Source: Mesorhizobium sp. (GTDB lineage Bacteria > Pseudomonadota > Alphaproteobacteria > Rhizobiales > Rhizobiaceae). Taken from it: DNA of 64,000 nt. Location: positions 1-64,000 of the forward strand of contig NZ_JAFKIC010000117.1 of assembly GCF_017306585.1 (NCBI RefSeq). Direction: 5' to 3'. Below are positions 965-19,731 of this stretch, piece after piece. A program made the position numbers and the translations under genes. Each line of letters opens with the position of its first letter. Position 1 is the stretch's first letter. The notes below the pieces were generated by a model, which worked only from the letters and a program-made list of their open reading frames with translations, was not told the origin of the DNA and made no database searches.

Positions 965-1923
965 GCGAAGCTTCGCCGGCAAAAGCCTACGGTCTGCATC
1001 TCGGCGTCATCGCGCTGCTTTTCCTCATGAACTTCGTGCTGCCCGATTATTATCACGGCCTGCTCGCCCGCATCATGGTGCTGGCCGTCTTCGCCATGGG
1101 CTACAACATCCTGTTCGGCTATGTCGGCCTGCTCAGCCTCGGCCATGCCATGTTCTTCGGCGCCGGGCTCTACGGCGCCGGCCTTGCCATCATCCAGCTT
1201 GGCTGGAGCGTGCCGGCGGCTTTCGCTGCCGGCCTTGCCTGCGGTGCCGTTCTGTCCCTCATCATCGGCCTGCTGGCGCTACGCACCACCGGTGTCGCGT
1301 TTATGATCGTCACCATGATGTTCGCGCAGGTGTTCTATCTCCTGATCCTCTATTTCGCGACGTGGACCGGCGGCGATCAGGGCCAGGTCGTGCCGCAGCC
1401 GGCGCGGGTATTGAACTTCGGTGCGACTTCGCTTGACCTCACCAATCCGACAGTTCGGTACATGAGCGCGCTCGTGCTGTTTTCGGTCGTACTTCTGACC
1501 ACTCTGGCTATCGTCCGCTCCCGCTATGGCCGGGTGCTGGTGGCGATCCGCGAGAACGAGGAGCGGACGAAGATGCTGGGCTTCGACACTTTTTCCAACA
1601 AGCTCTTGGCGGTGGCGATCTCGGGGACCATCTGCGCCGCCTCGGGCGCCGCCTATGCGCTGCTGTTCGGCTATGTCGGATCGAACTTCGCCTCGGTGCA
1701 GTATTCGATCCTGCCGCTGCTCTGGGTGCTGCTCGGCGGCGCCGCCACGACGCTCGGTCCGCTGATCGGCACGCTGTTCATGTACTACGTCATCGACATC
1801 ACCAGCGGCTACACATCGGCCTATCTGCTGATCGTCGGCGTGGCGCTGATCCTGCTGGTGCTGTTCTTCCCCAAGGGCATTCTGGGCACCATCCGCCAGC
1901 GCTGGCTCCGGTGGCTGCCATGA
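961..1923 (+). CDS. livM: Branched-chain amino acid type ABC transporter permease LivM
   Basis: A 320-aa second permease subunit of the Liv transporter, all hydrophobic segments with short loops. The LivM landmarks GYNILFGYVGLLSLGHAMFF near residue 45 and the EAA-like loop AIRENEERTKMLGFDTFSNK near residue 195, which contacts the ATPases, are visible. It starts inside the livH stop (ATGA) and ends inside the livG start. Length and composition are ordinary for the family. Confidence 0.93.
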   Translation: MSEASPAKAYGLHLGVIALLFLMNFVLPDYYHGLLARIMVLAVFAMGYNILFGYVGLLSLGHAMFFGAGLYGAGLAIIQLGWSVPAAFAAGLACGAVLSLIIGLLALRTTGVAFMIVTMMFAQVFYLLILYFATWTGGDQGQVVPQPARVLNFGATSLDLTNPTVRYMSALVLFSVVLLTTLAIVRSRYGRVLVAIRENEERTKMLGFDTFSNKLLAVAISGTICAASGAAYALLFGYVGSNFASVQYSILPLLWVLLGGAATTLGPLIGTLFMYYVIDITSGYTSAYLLIVGVALILLVLFFPKGILGTIRQRWLRWLP

Positions 1924-2645
1924 CGCCGCTGTTGATCACCAAGGGCCTGTCGCGCAGTTTTGGCGGCCTGCGCGCGGTCGACAATGTCGACTTCGCCCTG
2001 ATGCCGGGCGAGATCCGTGCCTTGATCGGTCCGAACGGCGCGGGAAAGACCACCTTTGTCAGCCTGGTCAGCGGCCGCATCCAGCCATCGTCAGGCGCGG
2101 TCGTCTTCGACGGCGCCGACGTCACCGGCCTGCCGGCCTATGTCAGGGTCCGCCGCGGCATTGCCTACACCTTCCAGATCACCAGCGTGTTCGCCAACCT
2201 CAGCGCCTATGACAATGTGGCGCTGCCGGTGCAGCGCACGTTGAGCGACAACCGCTCGAAAGGCGCCGTGCGCGACGGCGTCATGACGGCGCTCGAGCGC
2301 ACCGGCCTGGCGGAACGCGCCCGCACACCGGCCGGGCAATTGTCCTACGGCCATCAGCGCCTGCTGGAGGTGGCAATGGGGCTGGCGCTGAAGCCGCGCC
2401 TGCTCATCCTGGACGAGCCGACGCAGGGGCTGGCCGACAGCGAGATCGACAATTTCATCACGCTGGTGCGCGAGATCGCCGAGAATGCCACCGTGCTGCT
2501 GATCGAGCACAACATGCCGGTCGTCATGCAACTGGCCGACCGCATCACCGTGTTCAATGCCGGGAAGATCCTGGCCGAGGGCACGCCGGAGCAGATCCGC
2601 GAGAACGCGGCGGTGCAGGAAGCCTATCTGGGAACGGCGCCATGA
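1920..2645 (+). CDS. livG: Liv ABC transporter ATP-binding protein LivG
   Basis: A 241-aa ATPase. Walker A is GPNGAGKT near residue 37, the signature is the degenerate LSYGHQR, and Walker B is LLILDEPTQGL, followed by the switch His in LLIEHNM. The ATG at 1920 overlaps the livM stop by four bases and is preferred to the GTG nine bases upstream. It pairs with LivF to power the LivHM channel. LSYGHQR in place of LSGGQ is usual for LivG-type subunits. Confidence 0.92.
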   Translation: MTPLLITKGLSRSFGGLRAVDNVDFALMPGEIRALIGPNGAGKTTFVSLVSGRIQPSSGAVVFDGADVTGLPAYVRVRRGIAYTFQITSVFANLSAYDNVALPVQRTLSDNRSKGAVRDGVMTALERTGLAERARTPAGQLSYGHQRLLEVAMGLALKPRLLILDEPTQGLADSEIDNFITLVREIAENATVLLIEHNMPVVMQLADRITVFNAGKILAEGTPEQIRENAAVQEAYLGTAP

Positions 2646-3361
2646 CCGAGGCGATGTCCCAGGCTCTCACCATTTCGGGACTGGACTGCTTCTATGGCGA
2701 GGTCCAGGTGCTCTATGGCCTCGACCTCGAGCTGAACCGGGGCGAAGTGCTGTGCCTGTTCGGCCGCAACGGCGCCGGCAAGACGACGACGCTGAAGGCG
2801 ATCATGGGTCTGGTTCCAGCGCGCACCGGCTCGATCAAACTGGCGGGCCAGGAATTGACCGGCCTGCCGGCACATGACGTGCCGAAGGCGGGCGTCGCCT
2901 ATGTCCCCCAAGGCAGACGGCTGTTCGCCGAAATGACGGTGGCCGAAAACATCGAAATCGGGCTAATGGCGCGTGGCAAGGGCAAGGCGGTGCGCGACAA
3001 TGTCCTCGATCTCTTTCCCCTGCTGCGCCAGCGGCTGCGGCAACGCTCCGGCACCTTGTCGGGCGGTGAGCAGCAGATGCTGGCGATGGCGCGCGCGCTG
3101 TGCCTGGAACCGCAAGTGCTGCTGCTCGACGAGCCGACCGAAGGGCTAATGCCGTCGATGATCGCGAAAATCCGCGAGACGGTGTCGAAGCTGCGCGACA
3201 TGGATGTCTCGACCATCCTGGTCGAACAGCGCGTCGATGCGGTGCTATCGGTCGCCGATCGGGTTTGTTTCATCGAAAACGGCCGCAACCGCGAGACGGT
3301 CGATGTCGAGGCGCTGCGCGCCGATCCGTCGGCGGTCAGGCGCTATGTTGGCGTGGGCTGA
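2642..3361 (+). CDS. livF: Liv ABC transporter ATP-binding protein LivF
   Basis: A 239-aa ATPase, the second Liv nucleotide-binding subunit. It has Walker A GRNGAGKTT, signature LSGGEQQ, Walker B LLLLDEPTEGL and the late H-loop position replaced by Gln in ILVEQRVDAV, as is usual in LivF. It is the last gene of the operon. Its stop abuts the convergent antiporter stop with no spacer, so transcripts from the two strands must overlap. Confidence 0.92.
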   Translation: MTEAMSQALTISGLDCFYGEVQVLYGLDLELNRGEVLCLFGRNGAGKTTTLKAIMGLVPARTGSIKLAGQELTGLPAHDVPKAGVAYVPQGRRLFAEMTVAENIEIGLMARGKGKAVRDNVLDLFPLLRQRLRQRSGTLSGGEQQMLAMARALCLEPQVLLLDEPTEGLMPSMIAKIRETVSKLRDMDVSTILVEQRVDAVLSVADRVCFIENGRNRETVDVEALRADPSAVRRYVGVG

Positions 3362-4962: not shown

Positions 4963-5577
4963 TCAGTCTGTCAGATGATCTTCGAGCGTCACGCCGGCTT
5001 CGCGCATGCGTGCGATCATCGCCTCAAGGGACCCGTTGAGATCGATGGCGCGGCAGGCATCCAGCCGCACCGTCGTCCTGAAGCCTTGCCTGACGGCATC
5101 GAGCGCCGAATAGGCGACGCAGTAGTCGGTGGCGAGGCCGACCAGGGTAATGGTGTTGATGCCGCGCTCCCTCAGATAGCCGGTAAGGCCTGTCGGCGTC
5201 TTGTGGTCGTTCTCGAAGAAGGCCGAATAGCTGTCGATGTCGGGCCGAAAACCCTTGCGGATGACGAGTTCGGCCTTGGTCCAGGCAAGGCCAGAGTGGA
5301 AATCCGAACCGAGACTGCCCTGGATGCAATGGTCCGGCCACAGTGTCTGCGGCCCGTAGGCCATCTCGATCGAAGTGAAGGGCTGCGCGCCCGGATGGCT
5401 GGAAGCGAAACTGGAATGGCCGGCGGGATGCCAGTCCTGCGTCAACACGACATGGTCGTTGCGCCGGATCATGTCGTTGACCAACGGCACGATCTCGTCG
5501 CCGCCGGTCACCGCCAGCGCTCCACCAGGGCAAAAGTCGTTCTGAAGGTCGATGACAACAAGCGCTTCGTCGGCCAT
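4963..5577 (-). CDS. pncA: Nicotinamidase (pyrazinamidase) PncA
   Basis: A 204-aa isochorismatase-fold amidase that hydrolyses nicotinamide to nicotinate and ammonia in NAD salvage. The catalytic triad is visible as Asp10 (VVIDLQNDF), Lys108 (VIRKGF) and Cys153 (ATDYCVAYSA), with metal ligands Asp48, His50 and His83. Length is normal. It is divergent from the molybdenum hydroxylase operon, whose third gene resembles 6-hydroxynicotinate reductase, so its product could in principle feed that pathway. Ordinary NAD salvage is the default role. Confidence 0.92.
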   Translation of the reverse strand: MADEALVVIDLQNDFCPGGALAVTGGDEIVPLVNDMIRRNDHVVLTQDWHPAGHSSFASSHPGAQPFTSIEMAYGPQTLWPDHCIQGSLGSDFHSGLAWTKAELVIRKGFRPDIDSYSAFFENDHKTPTGLTGYLRERGINTITLVGLATDYCVAYSALDAVRQGFRTTVRLDACRAIDLNGSLEAMIARMREAGVTLEDHLTD

Positions 5578-5731
5578 TGGGCCTCCTTCTTCTCTGTGTT
5601 GGGCTCAGGCTCCAGTAGAAAGATGCCGCTGACGCGACCGGACGCAGAAACTTGACCAGATGAACGGCCGCGTCAACCTCCGGGGACATAACAATCGCGT
5701 TGTGGCCGGGATGACGGCGCCAACTCTGGCT

Positions 5732-5772
5732 TTGACAAATTCCGCCAGCTTGATATCATTTGCATACGAATG
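5732..5772 (+). promoter_or_regulatory. Candidate promoter and operator of the hydroxylase operon
   Basis: TTGACA at 5732-5737 is followed after 16 bases by TATCAT at 5754-5759. An imperfect inverted repeat CATTTG-CATA-CGAATG (5757-5772, five of six arm positions pairing) overlaps the -10 region and downstream. A repressor such as the MarR protein encoded at the operon's end could bind there. Seen by eye only. Confidence 0.35.
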
Positions 5773-5864: not shown

Positions 5865-6728
5865 GTGATCCGTTACGCGAAACCCACCACGGTCGAGGAG
5901 GCGCTCGCGCTGCTTGGCGAGGGCGCGTGGCGTATCCTTGCCGGCGGCACCGACTTCTATCCGGCGCAGGGCGCTAGGCCGTTCCGCGACAATGTGCTCG
6001 ATATCAACGCTCTCGCCCCGCTACGCGGTGTCGCCGAGACGGACGATCATTTCGTCATCGGCGCGCGCACGACATGGACCGACATTATCCGCCATCCCCT
6101 GCCGCCGGCCTTCGACGCGCTGAAACAGGCGGCACGGGAAGTGGGCTCGCCACAGATCCAGAACGTCGCTTCCGTCGCCGGCAATCTCTGCAACGCCTCG
6201 CCGGCCGCCGATGGTGTGCCCGGCCTGCTCGTGCTCAATGCCGAGGTTGAACTGCGCTCAGCGGCCGCGACGCGCCATCTGCCTTTGTCCGAATTCATTC
6301 TCGGCAACCGGCGCACGGCCCTGGCGCCTGGCGAGATGGTGACGGCGATCTGTATTCCCAAGCCTGCCGCGAGCGGCACGTCGGCCTTCGTCAAGCTCGG
6401 CGCGCGGCGCTATCTGGTCATTTCCATCGCCATGGTGGCGGCGCGGCTGACGATCGAGGACGGAACTGTCACGCACGCGACTGTCGCCGTCGGATCATGT
6501 TCGGCCGTCGCCAGGCGGCTTGCCGCTGTCGAGGCCGGATTGGTCGGGTTGCCGGCCGATCGCGGCCTTGGTGATGCCGTCCAGTCAGCGCCGATGGCTG
6601 AACTATCGCCGATCGCCGATGTGCGCGGCAGCGCGGAGTACCGGTTGGACGCGGTGCGGGAGATCGTGGCCCGGGCCGTGCTGATGGCCGCCGATCCGAC
6701 GAACGAGCATATGGTGGCAGTGGCATGA
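5865..6728 (+). CDS. Molybdenum hydroxylase FAD-binding subunit
   Basis: A 287-aa CoxM/XdhA-FAD type subunit. It starts KPTTVEEALALL and carries the FAD pyrophosphate-binding ILAGGTDFYPAQ and the IQNVASVAGNLCNASPAAD stretch that binds the isoalloxazine. The GTG at 5865, preceded by GAAGGCAGG, is chosen because residues upstream of it are not family-like and the leader is structured. It passes electrons from the Fe-S/Moco subunit to an acceptor. It overlaps the next gene by four bases. Confidence 0.85.
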   Translation: MIRYAKPTTVEEALALLGEGAWRILAGGTDFYPAQGARPFRDNVLDINALAPLRGVAETDDHFVIGARTTWTDIIRHPLPPAFDALKQAAREVGSPQIQNVASVAGNLCNASPAADGVPGLLVLNAEVELRSAAATRHLPLSEFILGNRRTALAPGEMVTAICIPKPAASGTSAFVKLGARRYLVISIAMVAARLTIEDGTVTHATVAVGSCSAVARRLAAVEAGLVGLPADRGLGDAVQSAPMAELSPIADVRGSAEYRLDAVREIVARAVLMAADPTNEHMVAVA

Positions 6729-9619
6729 GCAACACTCAGCCGGACATGAGCCGGGTTCCGGCTGACGATGCTCTGCTCGGTAGGGGCCGGCCCGAGCTCG
6801 GGCGCGCCGACATCGCCTTCGCGGTCAATGGCGCCGCTGTCTCCGTCAACGTGCCGCCGCTGCGCCGGCTGTCGTCCGTGCTGCGCGACGAATTGCGGCT
6901 CACCGGCACCAAGGTCGGCTGCGACGCCGGCGATTGCGGGGCCTGCACGGTGCTGGTCGACGGCGCTCCCGTCTGCGCCTGCCTTATGCCGGCGGCGTCC
7001 GTGTCCGGAGCGGCCGTAACGACGGTCGAAGGGCTCGCCAATGGCCGGTTGTCGGCGCTGCAGGCCTCGTTCCTCGCCCATGGCGCGGCACAATGCGGCA
7101 TCTGCACGCCGGCGCTGCTGGTCGCGGCGACCGCGCTGCTGGAGAAGGCGCCCACGCCGACCGAGATCGAGGTACAGGATGCGCTGGGCGGCATATTGTG
7201 CCGCTGCACCGGCTACCGGAAGATCATCGCGGCGGTGATGGAAGCGGGAAGATACGAACTGGCAATGAGTGGCGCCGCCCCTCATCCGCCTGCCGGCACC
7301 TTCTCCCCGTTGAACGGGGAGAAGGGCGAAGCTATCGGCCTCGATCGCAGGATGCCTCTCTCAGGCAATGCGGTAGGCTCCTCCCCGGTCAGGCTCGACG
7401 GCATCCCGAAAGTCACTGGCGACGAAAAGTTCGGCGGCGATTCCTTTCCCGCCGATGCGCTGGCGGTGCTGGTCATCCGCTCCCCGCACTACCACGCCAG
7501 ATTCGCCTTCGGCCACCTCGACCGGTGGGTTAAAGCGCATCCAGGCATCGCCGGCGTCTTCACTGCAGCCGATATTCCGGGAAAAAACTGTTTCGGCGTC
7601 ATCGGCCCGTTCGCCGACCAGCCGGCGCTGGCCGAAGGCTTTGCCCGGCTGCGCGGCGAGGCGGTGGCGCTGGTCGCCGGCGAACGCGAGGCGATGCTCG
7701 ACCTCGACCTGTCGGATTTCCCGATCCGGTGGAGTGAGCTACCGCATTTTCTCCACCCCGCCGAGGCGAAGGCCGAAGGCGCGGCGCTGATCCATGAAAG
7801 CCGTCCGGCCAATTTGTTGACGAAGGGCTTTGTCGAACGCGGCGACCCAGAGGCGGCGCTTGCCGATGCGGCCATCACCGTGACGGGCGCCATCGAAACC
7901 TCCTATGTCGAGCACGCCTATATCGAGCCGGAAGCGGGCCACGCCTATCTCGACGGCGACACGCTGGTCATCGTCGCCTGTACGCAGGCGCCCTACATGG
8001 ACCGCGACGACACCGCCAAGGTGCTCGGCCTTGCCGTCGACAAGGTGCGCATCGTGCCGACCGCGACCGGCGGCGGCTTCGGTTCGAAACTCGACGTTTC
8101 ATTGCAGCCGCTGATCGGCCTGGTGGCGCTGAAGACGGGGCGGCCGGCAGCCCTTGCCTACACCCGCAATGAATCGATGATGTCGACCACCAAGCGCCAT
8201 CCCGCCGAGATGAAAGCCACGATCGGCGCCAGCGCCGATGGTCTTGTCACCGGCATGGTGTTCGCGGGCGATTTCAACACCGGCGCCTACGCCAGCTGGG
8301 GACCGACGGTCGCCAATCGCGTGCCGGTGCATGCGTCCGGACCCTATGCGACGCCCAACTACCGCGCCGAAGGCCGCGCCATCCATACGCATGGGCCGAT
8401 CTCCGGCGCCTTCCGCGGTTTCGGGGTGCCGCAGGCGACGATCATGCAGGAGACGCTTTACGACGAGCTGGCCGGAAAGCTCGGCAAGGACCGCCTCGAT
8501 TTCCGTCTGAAAAACTGCCTTCGGAACGGCTCCGAAACGGTTACCGGGCAGCGTCTGGACTCCGGTGTCGGCATCGCCGAATGCCTCGAGGCGCTGCGGC
8601 CGCATTGGGCGCGCGCAACGGCGGACGCGGACGCCTTCAACCATATCCATGCGGATACCAAGCGCGGCGCCGGCGTGGCATCGTGCTGGTATGGTTGCGG
8701 CAACACCTCGCTGCCCAACCCGTCGACCATCCGCGTCGGTATCGCCGCCGATGGCGTGGTCGTGCTGCACCAGGGCGCCGTGGACATCGGCCAGGGCTCC
8801 AACACCGTCATCACCCAGATCTGCGCCGACGCGCTCGGCCTGCCGCTGGAGACATTCCGGCTGAGGAGCGCCGACACGGCGATCAGCCCCGACGCCGGCA
8901 AGACGTCGGCCTCGCGCCAGACTTTCGTGACCGGCAAGGCAGCTGAAAAGGCCGGACGCGCCCTGCGCGACAAGATCCTGCGCTTCGCCAACGTCTCGGA
9001 GAGAGCATCCCTCCGGTTGGACGGTCCGGCGATCGTCATCCATGAGGGCGAGGCGACGCGCCATATCGACCTTGCCGCGCTCGACACGGATGCCGACGGC
9101 TTCGTCTTCCGCGCCGAGGAGACCTACGACCCGCCCACCCTGCCGCTGGACGCCAAGGGCCAGGGCAAACCCTATGCCGTCTACGGCTATGGCGCGCAGA
9201 TCGCGGAGCTCGAGGTCGATCTCAAGCTCGGCACGGTGAAGCTCTTGAAGATCACCGCCGCGCACGATGTCGGCAAGGCGATCAACCCGCTGCTGGTCGA
9301 AGGCCAGATCGAAGGCGGCATCGCGCAAGGCATCGGCATGGCGCTGATGGAGGAGTATATCCCCGGCCGCACCGAGAACCTGCACGACTATCTCATCCCG
9401 ACGATCGGCGACGTGCCTGACATCAAGACCATCCTGGTCGAGGTGCCGGATCCCGAAGGGCCGTTCGGCGCCAAGGGCCTGGGCGAGCATGTGCTGATCC
9501 CGACGGCGCCGGCAATCCTCAATGCCATCCGCCATGCCACCGGCGTCCTGGTCACCAAGGTGCCGGCGACGCCAAGCCGCATCCTGGCGGCGATCCGCGA
9601 CAAGGAGGCACGCGCATGA
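6725..9619 (+). CDS. Fused 2Fe-2S / molybdopterin subunit of a xanthine-dehydrogenase-family hydroxylase
   Basis: A 964-aa catalytic subunit. Residues 28-175 hold the plant-type 2Fe-2S cluster (Cys66, 71, 74, 86) and the second cluster (Cys124, 127, 159, 161 in CGICTP and CRCTGY). From about residue 215 it is an aldehyde oxidase/xanthine dehydrogenase Moco domain, with TGGGFGSK, SGAFRGFGVPQ and the catalytic Glu in FGAKGLGE near the C-terminus. The Fe-S and Moco parts are fused while FAD is separate. Such enzymes hydroxylate aromatic N-heterocycles or aldehydes. The substrate is unknown; neighbours suggest a pyridine- or pyrimidine-like ring. Residues 185-202 are encoded by a repeat. Confidence 0.88.
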   Translation: MSNTQPDMSRVPADDALLGRGRPELGRADIAFAVNGAAVSVNVPPLRRLSSVLRDELRLTGTKVGCDAGDCGACTVLVDGAPVCACLMPAASVSGAAVTTVEGLANGRLSALQASFLAHGAAQCGICTPALLVAATALLEKAPTPTEIEVQDALGGILCRCTGYRKIIAAVMEAGRYELAMSGAAPHPPAGTFSPLNGEKGEAIGLDRRMPLSGNAVGSSPVRLDGIPKVTGDEKFGGDSFPADALAVLVIRSPHYHARFAFGHLDRWVKAHPGIAGVFTAADIPGKNCFGVIGPFADQPALAEGFARLRGEAVALVAGEREAMLDLDLSDFPIRWSELPHFLHPAEAKAEGAALIHESRPANLLTKGFVERGDPEAALADAAITVTGAIETSYVEHAYIEPEAGHAYLDGDTLVIVACTQAPYMDRDDTAKVLGLAVDKVRIVPTATGGGFGSKLDVSLQPLIGLVALKTGRPAALAYTRNESMMSTTKRHPAEMKATIGASADGLVTGMVFAGDFNTGAYASWGPTVANRVPVHASGPYATPNYRAEGRAIHTHGPISGAFRGFGVPQATIMQETLYDELAGKLGKDRLDFRLKNCLRNGSETVTGQRLDSGVGIAECLEALRPHWARATADADAFNHIHADTKRGAGVASCWYGCGNTSLPNPSTIRVGIAADGVVVLHQGAVDIGQGSNTVITQICADALGLPLETFRLRSADTAISPDAGKTSASRQTFVTGKAAEKAGRALRDKILRFANVSERASLRLDGPAIVIHEGEATRHIDLAALDTDADGFVFRAEETYDPPTLPLDAKGQGKPYAVYGYGAQIAELEVDLKLGTVKLLKITAAHDVGKAINPLLVEGQIEGGIAQGIGMALMEEYIPGRTENLHDYLIPTIGDVPDIKTILVEVPDPEGPFGAKGLGEHVLIPTAPAILNAIRHATGVLVTKVPATPSRILAAIRDKEARA
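7277..7330. repeat. Palindromic repeat embedded in frame in the hydroxylase gene
   Basis: CCCTCATCCG, CACCTTCTCCCCG and GGGGAGAAG follow one another here, matching the order and sequence of the left end of the intergenic mosaic repeat at 4797-4843. The stem TTCTCCCCGTT/AACGGGGAGAA is nearly perfect. It encodes residues 185-202, a Pro/Gly-rich stretch exactly in the linker between the Fe-S and Moco domains, and keeps the frame open. Confidence 0.75.
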
Positions 9620-11154
9620 GCGAGCTTGCCGAACGTTTCGAAACCCATGATCCCGGCGAGAAGCTGGTGGCGGAAAAGATCCGCTGCGATGCCTGCCCGG
9701 TCATGTGCTACATCGCGGACGGCCGCACCGGCGCCTGCGACCGCTATGGCAATGTCGCCGGCCGCATCATGCGCATGGATCCGCTGACCATCCTCGACCA
9801 CGCGGCCGGGACCGGCGCGGCGATGGTGCCCTTCGTCGCCGAGGGCGAGACGTGGAACGGCGAACTGGTCAACACAGGCCGCCGTTTCGTCACCGCGATC
9901 GGCGCCGGCACCACATATCCGGATTACAAGCCGGCGCCGTTCATCGTCAGCCAGGAGGTCGAAGGCGTCGACCTCGTCACCGTGGTGACCGAAGGCATTT
10001 TTTCGTATTGCGGCGTCAAGGTGAAGATCGACACGGATCGGCATATCGGACCGGAAACGGCTGTCGTGCGCTCGCAGGGCGAGGCGATCGGCCATGTCAC
10101 GACCGGCGAATACGGCTCTCAGATGCTGTCGCTTGGCGGGGTGCATCACCTGACGGGCGGTTCGAAGGCGGAAGGCCGGGCGACCTGCGATGCGCTGCTC
10201 GACCTGTGCAACCGCAAACCGGTGGAACTGACCATCGATGGCGGCGCCACCATAACAGTCGAAACCGGCAAAGCACCTGTCATAGATGGCAAGCAGGAAC
10301 ACCGCATGCGCGTCGGCTGCGGCTCGGCCACGATCGGCATGTTCGCCACGCAATGGCGAGGACTGGTCGACGAGGTGGTGGTGGTCGACGACCACATCAC
10401 CGGCGTCGTTTCCGAGCACCAGGCCGGCAAGGTGCTGGGCTGGCAGGATACGGGGATAAAGATTATCGGGCGTCGTTCGACGCCGGGCCGCTATTTCAAG
10501 GTCTCCGAGCCCGGTCTCGGCTGGGGCGGCACCAGCATAGACGACCCGCTGTCGATCCTTGGCGACTGGAACGCCAAGAAGGGCGCGCGGCCGGGCCTGT
10601 CGCTGCTGATGGTTTCGACCACCGGCGAGCAGTTCGCCTATTACGAGCTCGACGACGATCTGAAGCCCGTCCAGAAACCGTTTCCCGACCGGCTGCAAAA
10701 ATCGGTCAACCTGATCGAGGACAATTGCGAGCCGGCTCTCTGCACCGTGCTGTTCATCGGCGGCGCCGGCGGCTCGCTGCGCGCCGGCGTGACCGAAAAC
10801 CCGGTCAACCTAACCCGTTCGGTACAGGGCCTGAAGACCTATGTCACGGTCGGCGGAGCGCCTGTCTATGTCTGGCCGGGCGGCGGCATCACGCTGATGG
10901 TCGATGTCACAAGGGTGCCGGAAGGCGCCTTCGGCTATGTGCCGACGCCGGCGCTGGTGGCGCCGATCGAGTTCACCTTGCGTCGCGACGACTACATCAG
11001 GCTCGGCGGCTACGAGGCCGAGATCCGCAGCGTCGCGGACATCGTCGCCAAAGGCGGCGAATACCTCAATGCGCGGCAAGGCAGTGGTGCGCCATCAGGC
11101 AATCCCTGGCCGCCGTTGGCGCAATTGCGGCGTGCCGCGCCGAACGGGGCCTGA
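9616..11154 (+). CDS. 6-hydroxynicotinate reductase-like protein
   Basis: A 512-aa protein that I recognise as the family annotated 6-hydroxynicotinate reductase. In Eubacterium barkeri nicotinate fermentation that enzyme reduces the hydroxylated pyridine ring with ferredoxin. The N-terminus carries a cysteine group (CDACPVMCYIADGRTGACDR) that could hold an Fe-S cluster, and further Cys occur in CGVKVKID and RVGCGSATIG. No signal peptide or membrane segment is seen. It is coupled to the hydroxylase by a 4-base overlap. That supports hydroxylation followed by reduction of one substrate, but whether it is nicotinate is untested. Confidence 0.72.
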   Translation: MSELAERFETHDPGEKLVAEKIRCDACPVMCYIADGRTGACDRYGNVAGRIMRMDPLTILDHAAGTGAAMVPFVAEGETWNGELVNTGRRFVTAIGAGTTYPDYKPAPFIVSQEVEGVDLVTVVTEGIFSYCGVKVKIDTDRHIGPETAVVRSQGEAIGHVTTGEYGSQMLSLGGVHHLTGGSKAEGRATCDALLDLCNRKPVELTIDGGATITVETGKAPVIDGKQEHRMRVGCGSATIGMFATQWRGLVDEVVVVDDHITGVVSEHQAGKVLGWQDTGIKIIGRRSTPGRYFKVSEPGLGWGGTSIDDPLSILGDWNAKKGARPGLSLLMVSTTGEQFAYYELDDDLKPVQKPFPDRLQKSVNLIEDNCEPALCTVLFIGGAGGSLRAGVTENPVNLTRSVQGLKTYVTVGGAPVYVWPGGGITLMVDVTRVPEGAFGYVPTPALVAPIEFTLRRDDYIRLGGYEAEIRSVADIVAKGGEYLNARQGSGAPSGNPWPPLAQLRRAAPNGA

Positions 11155-12041
11155 TGATGGAGGGCCCGCAGGCACACTGGCTGCAGGACGGCAAGCGGCT
11201 GCATCTCAACCATGGGCCGATCGACTTGATCGTCGAGGCCTTTGGCGACGCGGATGAGTGCCGTCTGGCCTATGAGCAGGCCGTTACGCGCTTCCAGACG
11301 ATCCTGCTCGAACTGGTCGAAGAGCTTCCGGAACTGCGGCTGCCGGCGTTTTTCCTGGCGCCGCGCAGCTTCGCCGGCCCGACGGCGCGCCGCATGGAAG
11401 CTGCCGTCATGCCGCTGGCGGAATGTTTCATCACGCCGATGGCCGCCGTCGCGGGATCGGTAGCCGACGAAATGCTTGCCGCGCTGCTCGCCGGCCGCAA
11501 GCTCGACCGCGCCTATGTCAACAATGGCGGCGACAGCGCGCTCCACATCGGCAAGGGCCGGTCGATGGGGCTGGCGGTCGCCGGCACCGGCAATGGCATG
11601 GCCGACCGGATCACGATCCGCGCCGAGGATGGCGTGCGCGGCGTCGCCACCAGCGGCTGGCGCGGCCGCTCCTTCTCGCTGGGCATTGCCGACGCCGTCA
11701 CCGTGCTCGCCCGCACCGGCGCCGAGGCCGATGCGGCGGCGACGCTTATCGCCAATGCGGTGGATCTGCCCGGCAATCCCGCCATCAGCCGCATTCCCGC
11801 ACGCGACCTGTCGCCGGACAGCGACCTTGGCGCGCGGCTGGTGACACAAGGCGTCGGCACGCTTGCGCCTGGCGAAGTGGCTCGGGCGCTGGACAATGGC
11901 CTTGCCGTCGCCGAAGATTTCCGCCGGCGCGGCCTGATCGCCGCATCGGCGCTGTTTCTTGCCGGGGAGGCCCGTATCAGCGGCTCGGTCTCACTCGCCG
12001 CGCCCAAGAAGAATCCGAGGGAGGAAGTTGCCCATGCCTGA
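11154..12041 (+). CDS. UPF0280 family protein, ApbE-like
   Basis: A 295-aa protein of the UPF0280 family (COG2122), remotely related to the FMN transferase ApbE. The stretch YVNNGGDSALHIGKG near residue 120 parallels the ApbE glycine/aspartate motif, and AAVAGSVADEMLAALL precedes it. The function of the family is not established. Its place directly after the reductase-like gene (TGATG junction) suggests flavin attachment to, or cofactor handling for, that enzyme. This is inference. Confidence 0.75.
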   Translation: MMEGPQAHWLQDGKRLHLNHGPIDLIVEAFGDADECRLAYEQAVTRFQTILLELVEELPELRLPAFFLAPRSFAGPTARRMEAAVMPLAECFITPMAAVAGSVADEMLAALLAGRKLDRAYVNNGGDSALHIGKGRSMGLAVAGTGNGMADRITIRAEDGVRGVATSGWRGRSFSLGIADAVTVLARTGAEADAAATLIANAVDLPGNPAISRIPARDLSPDSDLGARLVTQGVGTLAPGEVARALDNGLAVAEDFRRRGLIAASALFLAGEARISGSVSLAAPKKNPREEVAHA

Positions 12042-12618
12042 GTTTCCGATCCGCAAGATCGCGGTGCTGAGCGAAGAGATCTTTCACGAAGGCGGCCCGG
12101 CCGTGGACGTGCCGCGTCGACGCGCGGCGGCGATGGCCGTGGTGAAAAACCCGTTCGCCGGGCGCTACGTCGAGGATCTGCAGAGCGCGATGGAGGATTT
12201 AAAGCCGCTCGGCCTGCTGCTCACCGACCGGCTGATCGCCGCGCTTGGCGGCGATGTGAAGCAGATCGACGGCTACGGCAAGGGCGCCATTGTCGGCACG
12301 GCGGGCGAACTGGAACACGGAGCGCTCTGGCATGTGCCCGGAGGCTACGCCATGCGCGAACGTCTGGGCGACGCCAAGGCGATCGTGCCGTCGGCCAAGA
12401 AAGTCGGCGCCTTCGGCTCGAAGCTCGACGTCCCGATCGGCCACGTCAACGCCGCCTATGTGCGCAGCCATTTCGACGCCATGGAAGTGGGCATCAGCGA
12501 CGGCCCGCGCCCTGACGAAATCCTGTTCTGTCTGGCCATGACCTGCGGGCCGCGCATCCACAACCGCATGGGCGGCCTGACGGCCGATCAGATAAAAGCC
12601 TGGGACGGGCTGCGGTGA
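12034..12618 (+). CDS. AA_synth family protein (PF06684, formerly DUF1185)
   Basis: A 194-aa protein matching the 'amino acid synthesis' family. Recognisable stretches are AVVKNPFAGRYVEDLQ, YGKGAIVGTAGELEHGALWH, FGSKLDVPIGHVNAAYVRSH and MTCGPRIHNRMGGL. The length is typical. Structures of the family are known but the reaction is not settled. It overlaps the preceding gene by eight bases and the MarR gene by four. Its conserved Lys, Glu and His residues would suit an enzyme acting after ring reduction, for example hydrolysis or isomerisation, but nothing here proves a step. Confidence 0.8.
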   Translation: MPEFPIRKIAVLSEEIFHEGGPAVDVPRRRAAAMAVVKNPFAGRYVEDLQSAMEDLKPLGLLLTDRLIAALGGDVKQIDGYGKGAIVGTAGELEHGALWHVPGGYAMRERLGDAKAIVPSAKKVGAFGSKLDVPIGHVNAAYVRSHFDAMEVGISDGPRPDEILFCLAMTCGPRIHNRMGGLTADQIKAWDGLR

Positions 12619-13076
12619 GCGCCGAGGACAATCTGCTCAAGCTGGTCGAGGCCGAAGGGCCGGACGATCAGGATTACCTCCTGCAGGAGCAGGTCGGCTT
12701 TATCCTGCGCAAGGCGCACCAGCGCCATGTCTCGATCTTCGCCGGCCGGATCGGCGACCTGACGCCGCCGCAATTCGCGGCGCTGGCCAAGCTGCGCGAT
12801 GTCGGCGAGACCTCGCAGAACCAACTCGGCACGATGATCGCCATGGACGCGGCGACGGTGAAGGGCGTCATCGACCGGCTCAAGGCGCGCGGCCTTGTCG
12901 AGCTGTCCAAACATGAAGTCGACAAGAGGCGGCTGCTGGTCAATCTGACCCCGGATGGCCGCGCGGCGATCGAACGGCTCATCCCGCTCGCAAGGGAGAT
13001 CACGCAGGAAACGCTGGCGCCGCTGACCAGCAAGGAAATCGCCACGTTCATGAAGCTTCTGGCCAAGCTGGCTTGA
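12615..13076 (+). CDS. MarR family transcriptional regulator
   Basis: A 153-aa winged-helix regulator. The DNA-recognition helix region reads TSQNQLGTMIAMDAATVKGV, followed by the wing HEVDKRRLLVNLTPDGRA. It starts with GTG inside the stop of the AA_synth gene (GTGA) and closes the six-gene operon. It is therefore probably autoregulated, with a catabolic intermediate or the substrate as ligand. A likely target is the inverted repeat near 5757-5772. Confidence 0.88.
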   Translation: MSAEDNLLKLVEAEGPDDQDYLLQEQVGFILRKAHQRHVSIFAGRIGDLTPPQFAALAKLRDVGETSQNQLGTMIAMDAATVKGVIDRLKARGLVELSKHEVDKRRLLVNLTPDGRAAIERLIPLAREITQETLAPLTSKEIATFMKLLAKLA

Positions 13077-13292
13077 GGCATCATCCGCCAGCTCGCTTGA
13101 CCGCCGGCAAAAGGGCGGCCACGCCAGACGTGGCCCAATCCAAAACGCAAATGTGAAGCATCTCCAAGTCTTGACTTGGGTCCCCGCCGATCCAGATGGC
13201 TCTGGACGGGCCCAGAGTTCATGCATTCAAGCAGCACTCCCCATCGTTGACTTGCTCGACGCTGACGAATGCCCGCCGAAAAGGAGACATCC

Positions 13293-14105
13293 GTGAAAAA
13301 CAAGTCGCTCATCGTGCTGGCCACGTCATTGGCTTCCGGCCTCGTGCTGTCATTCGGAGCAACCTCGGTGGCGGTCGCGCAGAGCGCGACGACGATCGTC
13401 GTGGGCGCCGATACGACCTTCCCGCCGTTCGAAACCGAGACGAATGGCGAGGTCACCGGCTTCGACATCGACATGATCAAGGCGATCGCCAAGGCCGAGG
13501 GCATGACGGTCAGCCTGAAGACGCTGCCGTTCAACGGCATCATCCCGAGCCTGCAGGCCGGCTCGATCGACGCCGCGGTCGCCGGCATAACGATCAAGAC
13601 CAGCCGCATGCAGAATGTCGAATTCTCCGACGCCTACTACAAGTCGGGCCTGTCGGTGCTGGTGAAGCAGGATTCCGACATCAAGGGCTTCGATGACCTG
13701 AAAGGCCATGTGGTGGCCACCAAGAAGGCAACATCATCGGTCGACTATCTGACCGGTCACGGGTTCGCGCAGGATTACATCAAGCAATTCCAGAGCATCG
13801 ACGCCGCCTACCAGGCGCTGGAGACCGGCGGCGCGGATGCCGTCATCTTCGACAATCCCGTCAACGTCAACTTCATGACCGCTCACAAGGACACCAAGAC
13901 CGTGGGCCCGCTGCTGACAGGCGAGTATTACGGCATCGCCATCAGCAAGCAGAAGCCGGAACTGGTCGAGAAGATCAATGACGGTCTCGCCAAGATCAGG
14001 CAGAGCGGCGAGTACCAGAAGCTGTTCCAGACCTATTTCGGCGGCGATACCAGCGGCGTGGTCAACGACGTGCAGAAGCCGGCCGCCGTCGCGATTTCCG
14101 GCTGA
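13293..14105 (+). CDS. Polar amino acid ABC transporter substrate-binding protein
   Basis: A 270-aa periplasmic binding protein of the GlnH/HisJ family. A lysine-led signal peptide (MKNKSLIVLATSLASGL... to VAVAQS) precedes TTIVVGADTTFPPFETETNG, the usual mature start. The ligand-contact region GFDIDMIKAIAK follows. The GTG at 13293 is preceded by AAGGAG at 13281, seven bases away, so it is preferred to the ATG at 13269. The 216-base gap upstream separates it from the MarR operon. The ligand is probably an amino acid or analogue. Confidence 0.88.
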   Translation: MKNKSLIVLATSLASGLVLSFGATSVAVAQSATTIVVGADTTFPPFETETNGEVTGFDIDMIKAIAKAEGMTVSLKTLPFNGIIPSLQAGSIDAAVAGITIKTSRMQNVEFSDAYYKSGLSVLVKQDSDIKGFDDLKGHVVATKKATSSVDYLTGHGFAQDYIKQFQSIDAAYQALETGGADAVIFDNPVNVNFMTAHKDTKTVGPLLTGEYYGIAISKQKPELVEKINDGLAKIRQSGEYQKLFQTYFGGDTSGVVNDVQKPAAVAISG

Positions 14106-14170
14106 GCATCGCCAGGTCGTCTGAAAGGCAGATAGCTCGGCCTCCCGACCGCCCGTCAGGTGAACGCAAA

Positions 14171-14193
14171 GCCCGTGGATCAACACCACGGGC
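14171..14193 (+). other. Intercistronic hairpin between binding protein and permease genes
   Basis: GCCCGTGG/CCACGGGC form a perfect 8-bp stem with a 7-base loop and no following U-run. Hairpins at this position typically stabilise the highly expressed binding-protein message or partly terminate before the permease. Confidence 0.6.
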
Positions 14194-14243
14194 AGCGCGC
14201 CTCCGGCGGGCAGGCCCGGGACTAGACATCCAAGGCATTGCTC

Positions 14244-14912
14244 ATGGACCCCATCCGGCAAAACCTACCCGTTCTCCTCGACGGCCTACGGCTGACGATC
14301 CAGTATTCGGTCGTCGCCATCATCCTGATGGTGGTGATCGGCCTCATCGCGGCGCTGATGCGCCTGTCGACGGTCGCGCCGTTGCGGTGGATCGCCACCG
14401 CCTATGTCGAGATTTTCCGGTCGACGCCGCTGCTGGTGCAGTTGTTCTTCATCGTGCTCGGATTGCCGGCGATCCTGCCCGTCAACCAGTGGTTCGGACA
14501 GCTGACCTATCCCATCCTGGCGGCGGCGATCACGCTCAGCCTGAACGAAGGCGCCTACGTCACCGAAATCATCCGCGCCGGCATTCTGGGCGTCGACCGG
14601 GGCCAGAAGGAAGCCGCCCAGAGCATCGCCATGAACGGCTTCCAGACGATGCGCTACATCGTGCTGCCGCAGGCGTTCAAGCGCATGATCCCGCCGCTGG
14701 TCAACCAGGCGGCGCAGACGATCAAGGACACCTCGCTGCTGGCGCCGGTCGGCATTGCAGAACTGGTCTACAAGGGCGAGATCGTGATCGCCGAGACGTT
14801 CGCGTCCTTTGCCATATGGGGCCTGATCGCGGCTCTCTACTTCGTCCTCATCTTCTCCTTGTCGAAATTCGCGTCCTACCTGGAGAGGAGGCTTCAAGTT
14901 GATAAACGTTAA
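14244..14912 (+). CDS. Polar amino acid ABC transporter permease
   Basis: A 222-aa HisM/GlnP-type permease with about five hydrophobic helices. The family hallmark [18 protein letters not shown] and the ATPase-docking EAA loop [20 protein letters not shown] (near residue 110) are present. The ATG at 14244 is chosen over the TTG two codons earlier. Only one permease gene is present, so it probably works as a homodimer. It overlaps the ATPase gene by 14 bases. Confidence 0.9.
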
Positions 14913-15621
14913 AGACCTTCACAAATCCTTCGGCCACAACGAGATCCTGAAGGGGATCAGCACCCATGTGGAGGAGAAGGAGGTGGTCGTCGTCATCGGC
15001 CCCTCGGGAAGCGGCAAGAGCACGTTTCTGCGCTGCCTGAATGGATTGGAGACCGCGACCAGCGGCGAGATCGAGATCGCCGGCATGACGCTTACCGATC
15101 CGAAGACCAACATCCACACGCTGCGGCAGCATGTCGGCATGGTGTTCCAGCAATTCAATCTCTTCAAGCATCTGACCATTCTGGAGAACGTCACGATCGG
15201 GCCGCGCAAGGTGAAGAAGGTGGCGCAGGCGCAGGCTGACAAGGTCGCGCGCGAATTGCTGGCCAAGGTCGGGCTGGTGGGCAAGGAAGCGAGCTATCCG
15301 GACGAATTGTCCGGCGGCCAGCAGCAGCGGGTGGCGATCGCCCGCTCGCTGGCGATGGGCCCGAATGTCATGCTCTTCGACGAGCCGACATCGGCGCTCG
15401 ACCCCGAAATGGTGGGCGAGGTGCTGCAGGTGATGAAGACGCTGGCGATCGAAGGCATGACGATGGTCGTCGTCACCCACGAGATGGGCTTCGCCCGCGA
15501 GGTCGGCCACCGCGTGATCTTCATGGATGACGGCCTGATCGTGGAGGAGGGAGCGCCGAAGTCGCTTTTCTCCGATCCGCAGAAGGACCGCACGAAAGGT
15601 TTCCTGGCTAAGATTCTGTAG
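14899..15621 (+). CDS. Polar amino acid ABC transporter ATP-binding protein
   Basis: A 240-aa GlnQ/HisP-type ATPase. It has Walker [11 protein letters not shown]-loop MVFQQFNLF, signature [17 protein letters not shown], Walker [15 protein letters not shown] and the H-loop [10 protein letters not shown]. It begins with TTG inside the permease gene, preceded by GGAGAGGAGG, so translation is coupled. It ends the three-gene operon just before a strong hairpin. Confidence 0.9.
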
Positions 15622-15698: not shown

Positions 15699-16667
15699 TC
15701 AGAGGCCGTTGTCCTTCAGGATCTTGCCGGCGTTTTCCTTGGTGACCTTCTCGGTCGGCAGCGTGATGGTCTTCTCGACCTTCTCGCCCTTGAGGAACTT
15801 GATCGCCTGGCGCAGGCCTTCCGCACCGGGAGTGACATAGGTGAAGGTTGCCGTCAGTTCGCCCTTGTTCACCATCTGGACGCCTTCATTGGGCAAGCCG
15901 TCGATACCGATGAACTTGATGTCCTTCTCGCGGCCGACATCCTTGGCGGCGAGATAGGCGCCGTAGGCCATCGGATCGTTGTGACCGTAGACGAGATCGA
16001 TCTTCTCGTTGGTCTTCAGCGCGTTGGCCATGATGTTGTAGGCCTGGTCCTGCTTCCAGTCACCCGACTGCTGGTCGAGCAGGTACTTGATGCCCGGCTC
16101 CTTGTCGGTGAATTCGTGGAAGCCGTCATGACGGTCATGCGCCGGCTGGGTGCCCATGCCGCCCCAGATCTCGACGACATTGCCCGCCGCCTTGCCCTTG
16201 CCGCCGAGCAGTTCGACGGCATATTCGCCGGCCGCGCGGCCGATCAGCGCGTTGTCGCCGCCGACGAACTGCGTGTAGTCCTTGGTGTCGACATTGCGGT
16301 CGAGCACGAAGACGGGAATCTTGGCGTCGATCGCCTGCTGGACGACGCCGGTCAGGCCGGCGGATTCCTTCGGCGACACCAGAAGCGCATCGACTTCCTG
16401 ACGGATCAGGTTCTCGACGTCGGCGACCTGCTTTTCGGTCTTGTCCTCGCCGTCGGTGATGATCAGCTCGACTTCGGGATGCTTGGCGGCTTCGGCGATG
16501 ATGTCCTTGTTGAACTGGGCGCGCCACGGCTCGATGGTGGTCACCTGCGAAAAGCCGATCTTCCACTTCTTGTCCTGGGCATAGGCATGACCGGTGGAGA
16601 GCAGCGCGGTCGTGGTCAGCAACGCCGCGCCGAATGCGGCAAGCCTGAGCATGTCACGTCGTTTCAT
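15699..16667 (-). CDS. Sugar ABC transporter substrate-binding protein (RbsB-like)
   Basis: A 322-aa periplasmic protein of the ribose/galactose-binding (PBP1) family. An N-terminal KRRDMLRLAAFGAALL segment with cleavage near AYAQ could be a Sec or Tat signal. Typical landmarks are KIGFSQVTTIEPWRAQFN, DALLVSPKESAGL, PVFVLDRNVD and IDLVYGHNDPMA. It is the last gene of the operon and starts within the permease stop (ATGA). The sugar cannot be told from sequence; ribose, galactose or a polyol are all possible. Confidence 0.88.
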   Translation of the reverse strand: MKRRDMLRLAAFGAALLTTTALLSTGHAYAQDKKWKIGFSQVTTIEPWRAQFNKDIIAEAAKHPEVELIITDGEDKTEKQVADVENLIRQEVDALLVSPKESAGLTGVVQQAIDAKIPVFVLDRNVDTKDYTQFVGGDNALIGRAAGEYAVELLGGKGKAAGNVVEIWGGMGTQPAHDRHDGFHEFTDKEPGIKYLLDQQSGDWKQDQAYNIMANALKTNEKIDLVYGHNDPMAYGAYLAAKDVGREKDIKFIGIDGLPNEGVQMVNKGELTATFTYVTPGAEGLRQAIKFLKGEKVEKTITLPTEKVTKENAGKILKDNGL

Positions 16668-17977
16668 TTCTTGTTTCCTCCGAGATTGAGAGACGGTGTC
16701 TCTTGCGACGGCCGTTTTGCCGCGGCCGTTTCCTTGTGCGCTGCGCCGGGCAGCCGCAGATAGGCGAGGAGATCCCCGGCATTGCGCTCCTGGACGAGCA
16801 CGGTGCCGATGATGATCAGCCCTTTCAGCACCAGCTGAAGGTTCGAATTGATGTTGTGGAGCTGCAATATGTTGGACAGCAGCCCGAAGATCAGCACGCC
16901 GCAGAAGGTACCGATCAGGCTGCCGCGCCCACCCATCAGGCTGGTGCCGCCGATGACGACGGCGGCGATGGCATCGAGCTCCAGCCCAGCGCCGGCATCG
17001 GGCTTGCCCTGCCGGTACTGCGCCACATAGAGCACGGCGGCGATGCCGGCGAGCAGGCCCGATATGGCATAGGTGGCGATCTTGACCCGGCCGGCGGCGA
17101 TGCCCGAGAGCCGGGCCGCTTCTTCATTGCCGCCGATGGCATAGACATAGCGGCCGAACGGCGTGAAACGCAGCACCGCGCTGTAGATGACGATGGCGCC
17201 GAGGAAGAACAGGCCGGGCATCGGAATGACGCCGAAGACCAGCGAGCGCAGCAACTCGAAATCTTCGGTGGCGTTGGAACCGGTATAAACCGGCAGCACC
17301 GCATTGTTCTGGCCGGCGGTCAGCCGGGCGATGCCGAGCGCCGTCACCATCATCGCCAGAGTGACGATGAAGGGCTGCAGCCGGCCGGCGACAATGATGA
17401 AGCCGTTGATGGCGCCGAACAGCAGGCCGACGCAGGGCGCCACCAGCAGCACGCCGAGCACGCCGAATTTCGGCTCGATCTGCGGCAGCAGGTACCAAAG
17501 CGACAGGCAGCACAGCACCACGCCGACGATCGCGGGCGCGGCCAGTCCGCGAGCATGGTCCAGCCTGATGTCGCGCCCGGCGGCGTCAGGACCGGCGCGG
17601 GATTTTTCCAGGTTGAGGAAGATGAAGCGCGTGACGACAAAGCCCAGGCAGAGCACCACAATGGCGACGGTCGGCACGCCCAGCACGACGCCCGGCGTCA
17701 CGCCCGGCACCGTCAGCAGCATGGCGCAGACCACCGAGCAGATGGCCATCAGCGAGCCGACGGAAAGGTCGATGCCGCCGGTGATGATGACCGCCGTCAT
17801 GCCGGTGGCAATCAGGCCCGTGGTCGACACCTGGCGCAGCACGTCGAGCAGGTTGCCATAGGACAGGAAGATGTTGTTGCCCTTGGAGCTGATGGGCGAA
17901 CCCAACACGCCGATCAGGAAGATGGCGATCAGGCCCCAGTAGAGCTTGGTCCGCGACAGGAGTTTCAATGCGCTCAT
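16664..17977 (-). CDS. Sugar ABC transporter permease (RbsC-like, enlarged)
   Basis: A 437-aa permease of the BPD_transp_2 family. RbsC landmarks are TTGLIATGMTAVIITGGIDL near residue 50, LFGAINGFIIVAGRLQPFIV near 205 and AVVIGGTSLMGGRGSLIGTF near 355. It is roughly 100 residues longer than ribose permeases because of an insert at about residues 95-195 with charged loop and extra hydrophobic segments. A Lys/Pro-rich tail follows. The ATG at 17977 overlaps the ATPase stop by four bases. Confidence 0.88.
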   Translation of the reverse strand: MSALKLLSRTKLYWGLIAIFLIGVLGSPISSKGNNIFLSYGNLLDVLRQVSTTGLIATGMTAVIITGGIDLSVGSLMAICSVVCAMLLTVPGVTPGVVLGVPTVAIVVLCLGFVVTRFIFLNLEKSRAGPDAAGRDIRLDHARGLAAPAIVGVVLCCLSLWYLLPQIEPKFGVLGVLLVAPCVGLLFGAINGFIIVAGRLQPFIVTLAMMVTALGIARLTAGQNNAVLPVYTGSNATEDFELLRSLVFGVIPMPGLFFLGAIVIYSAVLRFTPFGRYVYAIGGNEEAARLSGIAAGRVKIATYAISGLLAGIAAVLYVAQYRQGKPDAGAGLELDAIAAVVIGGTSLMGGRGSLIGTFCGVLIFGLLSNILQLHNINSNLQLVLKGLIIIGTVLVQERNAGDLLAYLRLPGAAHKETAAAKRPSQETPSLNLGGNKK

Positions 17978-19560: not shown

Positions 19561-19610
19561 GACAATCGCGGCCTCCCTTCCGTCTTTGTCAGCGTCCCAA
19601 ACGCTAATCT

Positions 19611-19727
19611 AAACGTTTCGATCCTGTCAAGCCGATATAGGGTAACGCTGGTTTGACGCATTTCAATTCTTGCCTAGAAAGGCAGGATTCCGTAGGTATT
19701 GGGAATACGGGATGACGAAACGTTTCG
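19611..19727. promoter_or_regulatory. Two LacI-type operators between divergent sugar genes
   Basis: AAACGTTT is found at 19611-19618, extended to AAACGTTTCG, and the 12-bp perfect palindrome CGAAACGTTTCG is at 19716-19727. Their centres are 107 bp apart, near ten helical turns, which suits DNA looping. One lies upstream of the ATPase gene, the other directly before the regulator start, so repression and autoregulation by the adjacent LacI protein are expected. Confidence 0.75.
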
Positions 19728-19731
19728 AAAA

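Follow-up and report, generated by a model that had tools for sequence, protein, structure and literature searches.

A Mesorhizobium operon most likely encodes a variant aerobic nicotinate pathway in which UPF0280 accompanies 6-hydroxynicotinate reductase and HyuAB is the proposed ring opener

A 64,000-nucleotide stretch of Mesorhizobium sp. (contig NZ_JAFKIC010000117.1, positions 1 to 64,000; the window) carries six genes for a two-subunit molybdenum hydroxylase, a protein resembling 6-hydroxynicotinate reductase (HNR), a UPF0280 protein, an AA_synth protein and a MarR-family regulator. The initial annotation of this DNA assigned them to an unassigned N-heterocycle pathway. We find that they most likely represent a variant of the nicotinate route that runs via 6-hydroxynicotinate and tetrahydro-6-oxonicotinate. 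Drawing on gene content, orthology, co-occurrence, a common operator motif and the fold of a UPF0280 model, we put the probability that the operon encodes the upper section of an aerobic pathway for nicotinate, with HyuAB as ring opener and UPF0280 as partner of HNR, at about 0.62.

In the pathway that we propose, PncA, whose divergent gene went unmentioned in the initial annotation, would convert nicotinamide to nicotinate. The hydroxylase, with its flavin adenine dinucleotide (FAD), iron-sulfur and molybdenum cofactor (Moco) parts, would then yield 6-hydroxynicotinate, from which ring reduction by HNR would give 1,4,5,6-tetrahydro-6-oxonicotinate. To open this cyclic amide the cell would use, in place of an enamidase, an ATP-dependent lactam hydrolase, HyuA/HyuB, whose genes adjoin the operon in some relatives and in the window genome lie on another contig (C167). 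UPF0280, with its ApbE-like fold, constantly accompanies HNR and most likely aids its maturation. The MarR protein probably acts through a palindromic operator common to the operon and hyuA.

A route via tetrahydro-6-oxonicotinate has been described for strain SG-6C, whose HNR homologue is 42% identical to that of Eubacterium barkeri, and also for Azorhizobium caulinodans, Bradyrhizobium japonicum USDA110 and R. palustris HaA2 (PMC3511419). As that report outlines it, the cluster is conserved in A. caulinodans and other proteobacteria and takes in genes for the first three steps, two conserved proteins of unknown function and a putative ABC (ATP-binding cassette) transporter. Growth on both nicotinate and 6-hydroxynicotinate was demonstrated there. 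Because both the cluster and growth were reported there, the hydroxylate-then-reduce logic that the initial annotation proposed for an aerobic rhizobium is already known, and its link to E. barkeri is real, with the hydroxylase nearest to 3HRD and HNR homologous. The two unknown proteins are presumably UPF0280 and AA_synth. What we add is a proposed replacement of enamidase by HyuAB and the constant partnership of UPF0280 with HNR.

The six genes form a single run on the plus strand, with the positions, families and flanking Liv and Gln-type transporters first described. Successive genes overlap by 4, 4, 1, 8 and 4 bases; overlaps of 4-8 bases, as initially claimed, hold at four of the five junctions, and the fifth, between HNR and UPF0280, is a single base (TGATG at 11152-11156). 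The same gene order was found again in many genomes, and therefore the arrangement is not due to chance. Nicotinamidase gave one match per genome in 19 same-genus genomes (window genome included) and in G593. The sole match in the window genome is the pncA that adjoins the operon, and pncA adjoins the FAD gene in the ten window-type loci laid out. Nicotinamidase genes above the NCBIfam cut-off also lie near HNR clusters of other lineages (L035, L102).

By sequence, the closest solved relative of the hydroxylase is the nicotinate dehydrogenase (Ndh) of E. barkeri, 3HRD. 3HRD has two Moco subunits, against which the Moco part of the window hydroxylase scored 264.3 + 224.4 bits; the next best solved protein was 4-hydroxybenzoyl-CoA reductase at 309.8 bits. 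For the FAD subunit the best PDB match was 3HRD_C, by a narrow margin (109 vs 102.7 bits). Whereas the Moco subunits of the E. barkeri enzyme are split, the window hydroxylase has them in one fused chain that includes the 2Fe-2S part. Both share the motif WYGxGNT, with W655-Y656 of the window protein aligning with W12-Y13 of 3HRD_B; we take Tyr13 of the 3HRD M chain to be a functional residue of this motif. Alignments with 4-hydroxybenzoyl-CoA reductase and with two aldehyde oxidoreductases, as printed, lack WYGxGNT, although the latter two keep YGxG.

These motifs are widespread in the HNR loci. Among 91 hydroxylases, some of them incomplete rows, [WY]YGxGNT was found in 77, GGGFG[SG]KLD in 74, TQxPxxD in 72, GAFRGFGVPQ in 67 and TGAYAS[WY]GP in 54; [WY]YGxGNT is also present in Firmicute Ndh among the 24 rows displayed. 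In the window hydroxylase a Leu follows the Lys of GGGFGSKLD, at a position where xanthine dehydrogenase (XDH) presumably has a substrate-binding Glu. XDH itself was rejected as an assignment, its NCBIfam models scoring below their cut-offs. The hydroxylases of HNR loci are either Ndh-like (split or fused) or consist of a Moco protein fused to cytochrome c domains, a type that we assume to be like NicAB of Pseudomonas; the fusion was verified in two loci, L093 and L097, and others of that class gave weak hydroxylase matches only.

HNR is named by homology alone because it matched no Pfam family above cut-off and no NCBIfam family at E<=0.001. It resembles plasmid genes annotated as 6-hydroxynicotinate reductase, shares 38-46% identity with HNRs from anaerobes whose clusters contain enamidase, and belongs to one family with HNRs that lie beside enamidase genes; nine of those enamidases align with E. 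barkeri enamidase 2VUN at 46-48% identity. An alignment of 36 HNRs, taking in anaerobe and Azorhizobium proteins, has six invariant Cys (C24, C27, C31, C41, C235, C371) and three invariant His (260, 268, 466), each conserved in at least 97% of rows. The ferredoxin dependence that the initial annotation cited from E. barkeri may not carry over: the N-terminal ferredoxin-like 2x[4Fe-4S] stretch of anaerobe HNRs is lacking in the window HNR. The AlphaFold model of HNR (predicted local distance difference test score, pLDDT, 82; predicted template modelling score, pTM, 0.80) gave no PDB fold match at E<=0.001 (Foldseek) and none in BFVD, and there was no significant PDB sequence match. The HNR of E. 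barkeri reportedly contains covalently bound flavin. No ApbE/SGAT-type target motif was recognised by eye in HNR; GCGSAT is conserved, its Thr not invariantly.

Other observations concern the relatives and possible electron sources of HNR. An Archaeoglobi HNR (L124, 12926-14665, minus strand) begins with what by eye is a MoaD-like stretch ending in GGG, followed by ferredoxin-like and HNR parts. A gene for a 2-oxoacid:ferredoxin oxidoreductase-like subunit, recognised by eye, lies near HNR in L053, L056, L059 and L065 and is a possible electron source. A candidate electron donor is a ferredoxin-NADP-reductase-like gene (L192, 2817-3653, and kin; NF008178 139 bits, below cut-off), which diverges from hyuA across the operator. 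Common ancestry of HNR and the DUF39 family is not claimed because the hhalign match to four DUF39 sequences was not significant (probability 0.4%, E 0.14, 24 columns). The two have a short look-alike stretch, VDVVT..T..P..S.G (DUF39 of L201 and L204), also not significant, and a DUF39 profile gave only weak antibody-chain matches in the PDB (best E 0.02).

Conserved co-occurrence, which the initial annotation suggested looking for, was found. HNR and UPF0280 occur in an identical set of 44 of 289 alphaproteobacterial genomes, none discordant. AA_synth is less tightly coupled to HNR (56 genomes, 39 shared). UPF0280 directly follows HNR in 67 of 69 HNR-anchored loci, which comprise 40 and 28 from two locus sets plus the window (L080 is an extra stretch lacking HNR, and three of the 44 HNR genomes, G071, G087 and G064, all on short contigs, were left out at up to 20 kb). 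The same holds for 54 of the 59 HNR-bearing loci among 80 anchored on enamidase (L108-L187). In L069, L112 and L141 HNR reaches a contig or locus end, in L100 a MarR-like match and in L138 a 448-base gap intervenes, and in L130 UPF0280 stands further along the same gene run. L177 (1-1300) is a real local exception: the C-terminal part of an HNR, either a remnant or a junction, is followed by unrelated genes, and the 6.4-kb contig has no UPF0280.

The pairing extends across hydroxylase types and into Firmicutes, deltaproteobacteria and an Archaeoglobi genome, and many Firmicute loci carry both UPF0280 and AA_synth. These data indicate that UPF0280 is the constant partner of HNR and not, as the initial annotation had it, a later pathway step; it follows HNR regardless of the hydroxylase or ring opener. 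AA_synth may still act as such a step, and members of its family are mentioned in other ring-degrading pathways, namely TgnF of trigonelline degradation and HcdD (PMC7913881).

We propose that UPF0280 may be a dedicated HNR maturase, perhaps one that attaches flavin. Its constant place behind HNR, irrespective of the adjoining hydroxylase or ring opener, fits a role in maturation or as a partner. Its AlphaFold model (pLDDT 91) matches DVU1097 and then only ApbE/Ftp-type proteins down to rank 41 (Foldseek), the flavin mononucleotide transferases among them at E of about 1e-5 to 1e-3. UPF0280 keeps NGGD, TSG and ADxxAT-like motifs, which in ApbE form the metal site. It differs from these transferases in scoring below the Pfam ApbE cut-off (10.9 vs 25.6 bits) and in having no significant sequence match to ApbE chains (E 0.07 and weaker). 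Flavin attachment by a maturase would tie together the observations on UPF0280, yet the idea is tentative and somewhat doubtful because neither the ApbE His nor a target motif was seen. The NCBIfam model that UPF0280 matches, NF003322 (PRK04334), carries only the name 'hypothetical protein'; we take it, as well as COG2122, to be UPF0280.

The copy number of UPF0280 may point to a second client. Copies of UPF0280 and DUF39 were counted in ten anaerobe genomes, and UPF0280 matches equal one plus the DUF39 matches: the four genomes with DUF39 have two and the six without it have one. In one of the four, the second UPF0280 is a partial match beside DUF39. Published work on COG2122 describes kinship to ApbE without the ApbE flavin-binding region, a requirement for COG2122 and DUF39 in homocysteine synthesis, and the methanogen member MA1715 as a sulfur trafficking protein (PMC5764234, PMC12068725). 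UPF0280 might by analogy supply sulfur to HNR or to the Mo=S ligand of the hydroxylase. We consider this unlikely: no alignment column has Cys in at least 30% of 31 HNR-linked UPF0280s, and UPF0280 accompanies HNR beside other types of hydroxylase too, which argues against a role in the hydroxylase.

Strict co-occurrence and adjacency would equally be expected of a heteromeric enzyme, with UPF0280 as a structural subunit of an HNR complex that has no part in maturation. The retention of the ApbE core motifs suggests an active site and makes a purely structural role rather improbable. We know of no UPF0280-like subunit from the purification of the E. barkeri HNR, and we found no paper that treats UPF0280 together with HNR in the literature searched.

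The route also probably differs from that of E. barkeri at ring opening, as the initial annotation anticipated. Within the window's first 24 kb we found no enamidase, and we propose that this step has probably been taken over by HyuAB, a caprolactamase-like, ATP-dependent lactam hydrolase. A HyuA ortholog is present in all 26 selected genomes. In the genus, 60 of 61 genomes have HNR and 59 of 61 have HyuA, with G666 lacking both. The window genome (G000) has HyuA on C167, 91% identical, next to a HyuB that is interrupted by the contig end, and in L084, L087, L104 and L200 HyuB and HyuA adjoin the cluster itself. A quickly built tree of 118 HNRs, rooted at its midpoint, places the window in a clade of 15 rows (Shimodaira-Hasegawa-like approximate likelihood ratio test 96) in which HyuA lies near six loci and enamidase near none.

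Across the 69 HNR-anchored loci, enamidase is nearby in 20 and HyuA in 22, and the two never occur together; loci chosen for their enamidase were kept out of this count. For independent loci such a lack of overlap would have a chance of 8e-5, but these loci are not independent. HyuA and HyuB of L104 are nearest to caprolactamase in NCBIfam. HyuAB resembles the two-subunit, ATP-dependent lactam hydrolases of the caprolactamase CapAB/5-oxoprolinase/hydantoinase family (PMC8453981), and we claim membership of this wider family only; it differs from CapAB in its scores and in its linkage to HNR clusters. A paper on a fungal nicotine transcriptome mentions oxoprolinase and not 'hydantoinase'. In L097, HyuAB and HNR stand with a cytochrome-fused hydroxylase like that of the Bradyrhizobium-like locus L093.

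A common operator motif connects these genes. Ten window-type promoters have diverged except for TTTGACA, TGATAT and the 16-mer CATTTGCATACGAATG, which nine of them share exactly and the tenth has with a single base changed. The palindromic pattern has 72 sites in 70 loci (1.33 Mb), and 68 of them fall within 400 bases upstream of, or 20 bases into, a labelled gene start, zones that make up 22.6% of the bases. The sites precede FAD genes (28), hydroxylase (13, two doubtful), HNR (11), enamidase (6), HyuA (5), LivK (2), MarR (2) and LivG (1), with four elsewhere. With at most one mismatch allowed, the core palindrome was counted 31 times, whereas 58 palindromes with shuffled half-sites averaged 0.8 occurrences (maximum 6). 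The MarR protein is predicted to bind the palindrome.

Each of the nine hyuA loci retrieved (L192-L200) has a site ahead of hyuA, including that of the window genome, where CGTTTGTATACTAATA lies about 115 bases upstream. L097 has sites before hyuA and before the cytochrome-fused hydroxylase. Bradyrhizobium-like loci, meaning those that group with Afipia L171 in the HNR tree (L088-L093, L105-L107), have sites before HNR and hydroxylase in nine of nine cases and before enamidase in five of nine. Because sites precede hyuA as they precede enamidase in those loci, HyuAB appears to hold the regulon place that enamidase has there. These loci resemble the window in their HNR-UPF0280-AA_synth-Liv-MarR content and kind of operator. 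They differ in that several carry enamidase and that the single hydroxylase checked (L093) is fused to cytochrome c domains, whereas the window has an Ndh/XDH-type hydroxylase and its genome, as the probable opener, HyuAB. The motif is far from universal, since 36 proteobacterial and related loci (L152-L187) have only 11 sites, nine of them upstream of a labelled gene.

Several points weigh against this reading. G675, a genome 90% complete, has HNR but no HyuA match, 27 of the 69 HNR loci have neither opener nearby, genomes of one genus are not independent, and the tree was built quickly and rooted at its midpoint. The L104 HyuA and HyuB score 505 and 321 bits, below the caprolactamase cut-offs of 1000. 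The operator pattern was defined on window-type promoters and widened after sites at L031, L033, L037 and hyuA had been seen. An operator of their own was found in 27 of 49 FAD, 6 of 17 enamidase and 5 of 21 HyuA loci, although many site-less genes may lie inside operons, and the hyuA operator could instead serve the divergent ferredoxin-NADP-reductase-like gene. The conserved His of ApbE is not seen in UPF0280. PncA, being single-copy, could be a housekeeping neighbour, and the window genome has an enamidase on contig C200, so HyuAB need not be its sole opener.

The same enzymes might act on another N-heterocycle, such as picolinate, isonicotinate, a methylated pyridine or a pyrimidine, with shifted HNR and hydroxylase substrates and HyuAB opening some other lactam or a hydantoin. 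Sequence does not reveal the substrate, the window subclade lacks a nearby enamidase and a different opener could mean a different ring, and clusters elsewhere add Rieske-type oxygenases, so that the module is reused. Against this, the pocket motifs are largely common to nicotinate enzymes, nicotinamidase genes lie near HNR clusters of other lineages, L097 pairs HyuAB with a cytochrome-fused hydroxylase, and the operator is common to the Bradyrhizobium-like nicotinate-type loci. We therefore regard another ring as unlikely. It is more improbable still that the C200 enamidase, 64% identical to the L037 enamidase and beside tandem AA_synth genes, opens the ring in the window strain with HyuAB unrelated, as its locus carries a separate MarR-like gene, another kind of transporter, nucleoside-hydrolase-like genes and no window-type operator, and occurs in 4 of 31 genus genomes against 60 of 61 for HNR.

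The absence of enamidase noted initially thus holds for the part of the window examined and not for the genome. The four genomes with an enamidase include the window genome, and the other 27 gave no match. The C200 enamidase is 80% identical to that of M. plurifarium (L153), and none of eight scanned enamidase loci of this kind has a window-type operator. The C200 locus (L075, 1305-12057) contains tandem AA_synth genes, the enamidase, a MarR-like gene, an isochorismatase-fold hydrolase, a nucleoside-type ABC transporter (by eye) and nucleoside-hydrolase-like genes, and perhaps serves uptake and breakdown of a pyridine nucleoside.

The features of the window are collected in Table 1. Liv-type transporters adjoin many HNR clusters. 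The Gln-type transporter is probably not a constant part of the cluster because HyuBA lies on that side of MarR in some relatives.

Table 1. Features of the operon and its surroundings in the window
Feature	Position	Strand	Basis
LivHMGF-type ABC transporter	83-3361	+	Pfam; putative uptake role
PncA nicotinamidase, divergent neighbour	4963-5577	-	NF008623 220 bits, cut-off 174
Promoter-like element (putative role)	5731-5757	+	TTTGACA at 5731, TTGATATC at 5750; alignment of 10 window-type intergenic regions
Palindromic operator CATTTGCATACGAATG, predicted, probably of the MarR protein	5757-5772	.	10 window-type promoters
FAD subunit, nicotinate-dehydrogenase-like Mo hydroxylase	5865-6728	+	GTG start; Pfam FAD_binding_5, CO_deh_flav_C
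Fused 2x[2Fe-2S]/Moco hydroxylase subunit	6725-9619	+	Fer2_2, MoCoBD_1, MoCoBD_2; W655-Y656, GGGFGSKLD from 450, GLGEH from 918
6-Hydroxynicotinate-reductase-like protein (HNR)	9616-11154	+	Homology; invariant C24/C27/C31/C41; no ferredoxin stretch
UPF0280 protein, ApbE-like fold	11154-12041	+	NF003322 395.6 bits, cut-off 290; AlphaFold model
AA_synth (DUF1185) protein	12034-12618	+	PF06684 238.6 bits; relatives 3BYQ, 2QTP
MarR-family regulator	12615-13076	+	Family profile match
Gln-type ABC transporter	13269-15621	+	Profile matches

Elsewhere in the window, a sugar- or nucleoside-type ABC transporter with a LacI regulator (15699-20799) adjoins the Gln-type transporter, and a Guanidine-II riboswitch (RF01068, 44 bits) lies at 27101-27150 on the minus strand. 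Many HNR clusters of other bacteria (L039, L055, L058, L068, L156, L162, L175, L186 and others) contain a gene that by eye encodes a Rieske-type oxygenase, possibly an N-demethylase for a methylated pyridine. For homarine as a substrate, the literature matches listed contained nothing about the cluster.

Taken more widely, UPF0280/COG2122 proteins could be client-specific maturases, probably flavin transferases derived from ApbE, with one paralogue for HNR and another for the DUF39 homocysteine-forming protein, while in Mesorhizobium-like bacteria an ATP-dependent lactam hydrolase replaces enamidase inside one regulon; we hold this combined picture only tentatively. The DUF39 copy-number match would offer one explanation for the otherwise separate role of UPF0280 in methionine synthesis. 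Both its presence and its adjacency now tie UPF0280, a so far uncharacterised protein of bacteria and archaea, to a single enzyme, and its role can be tested directly. The pathway proposed here, if correct, would complete the breakdown of vitamin B3 in a large group of bacteria from soil and nodules, the ring being opened by a non-homologous enzyme under a common operator.

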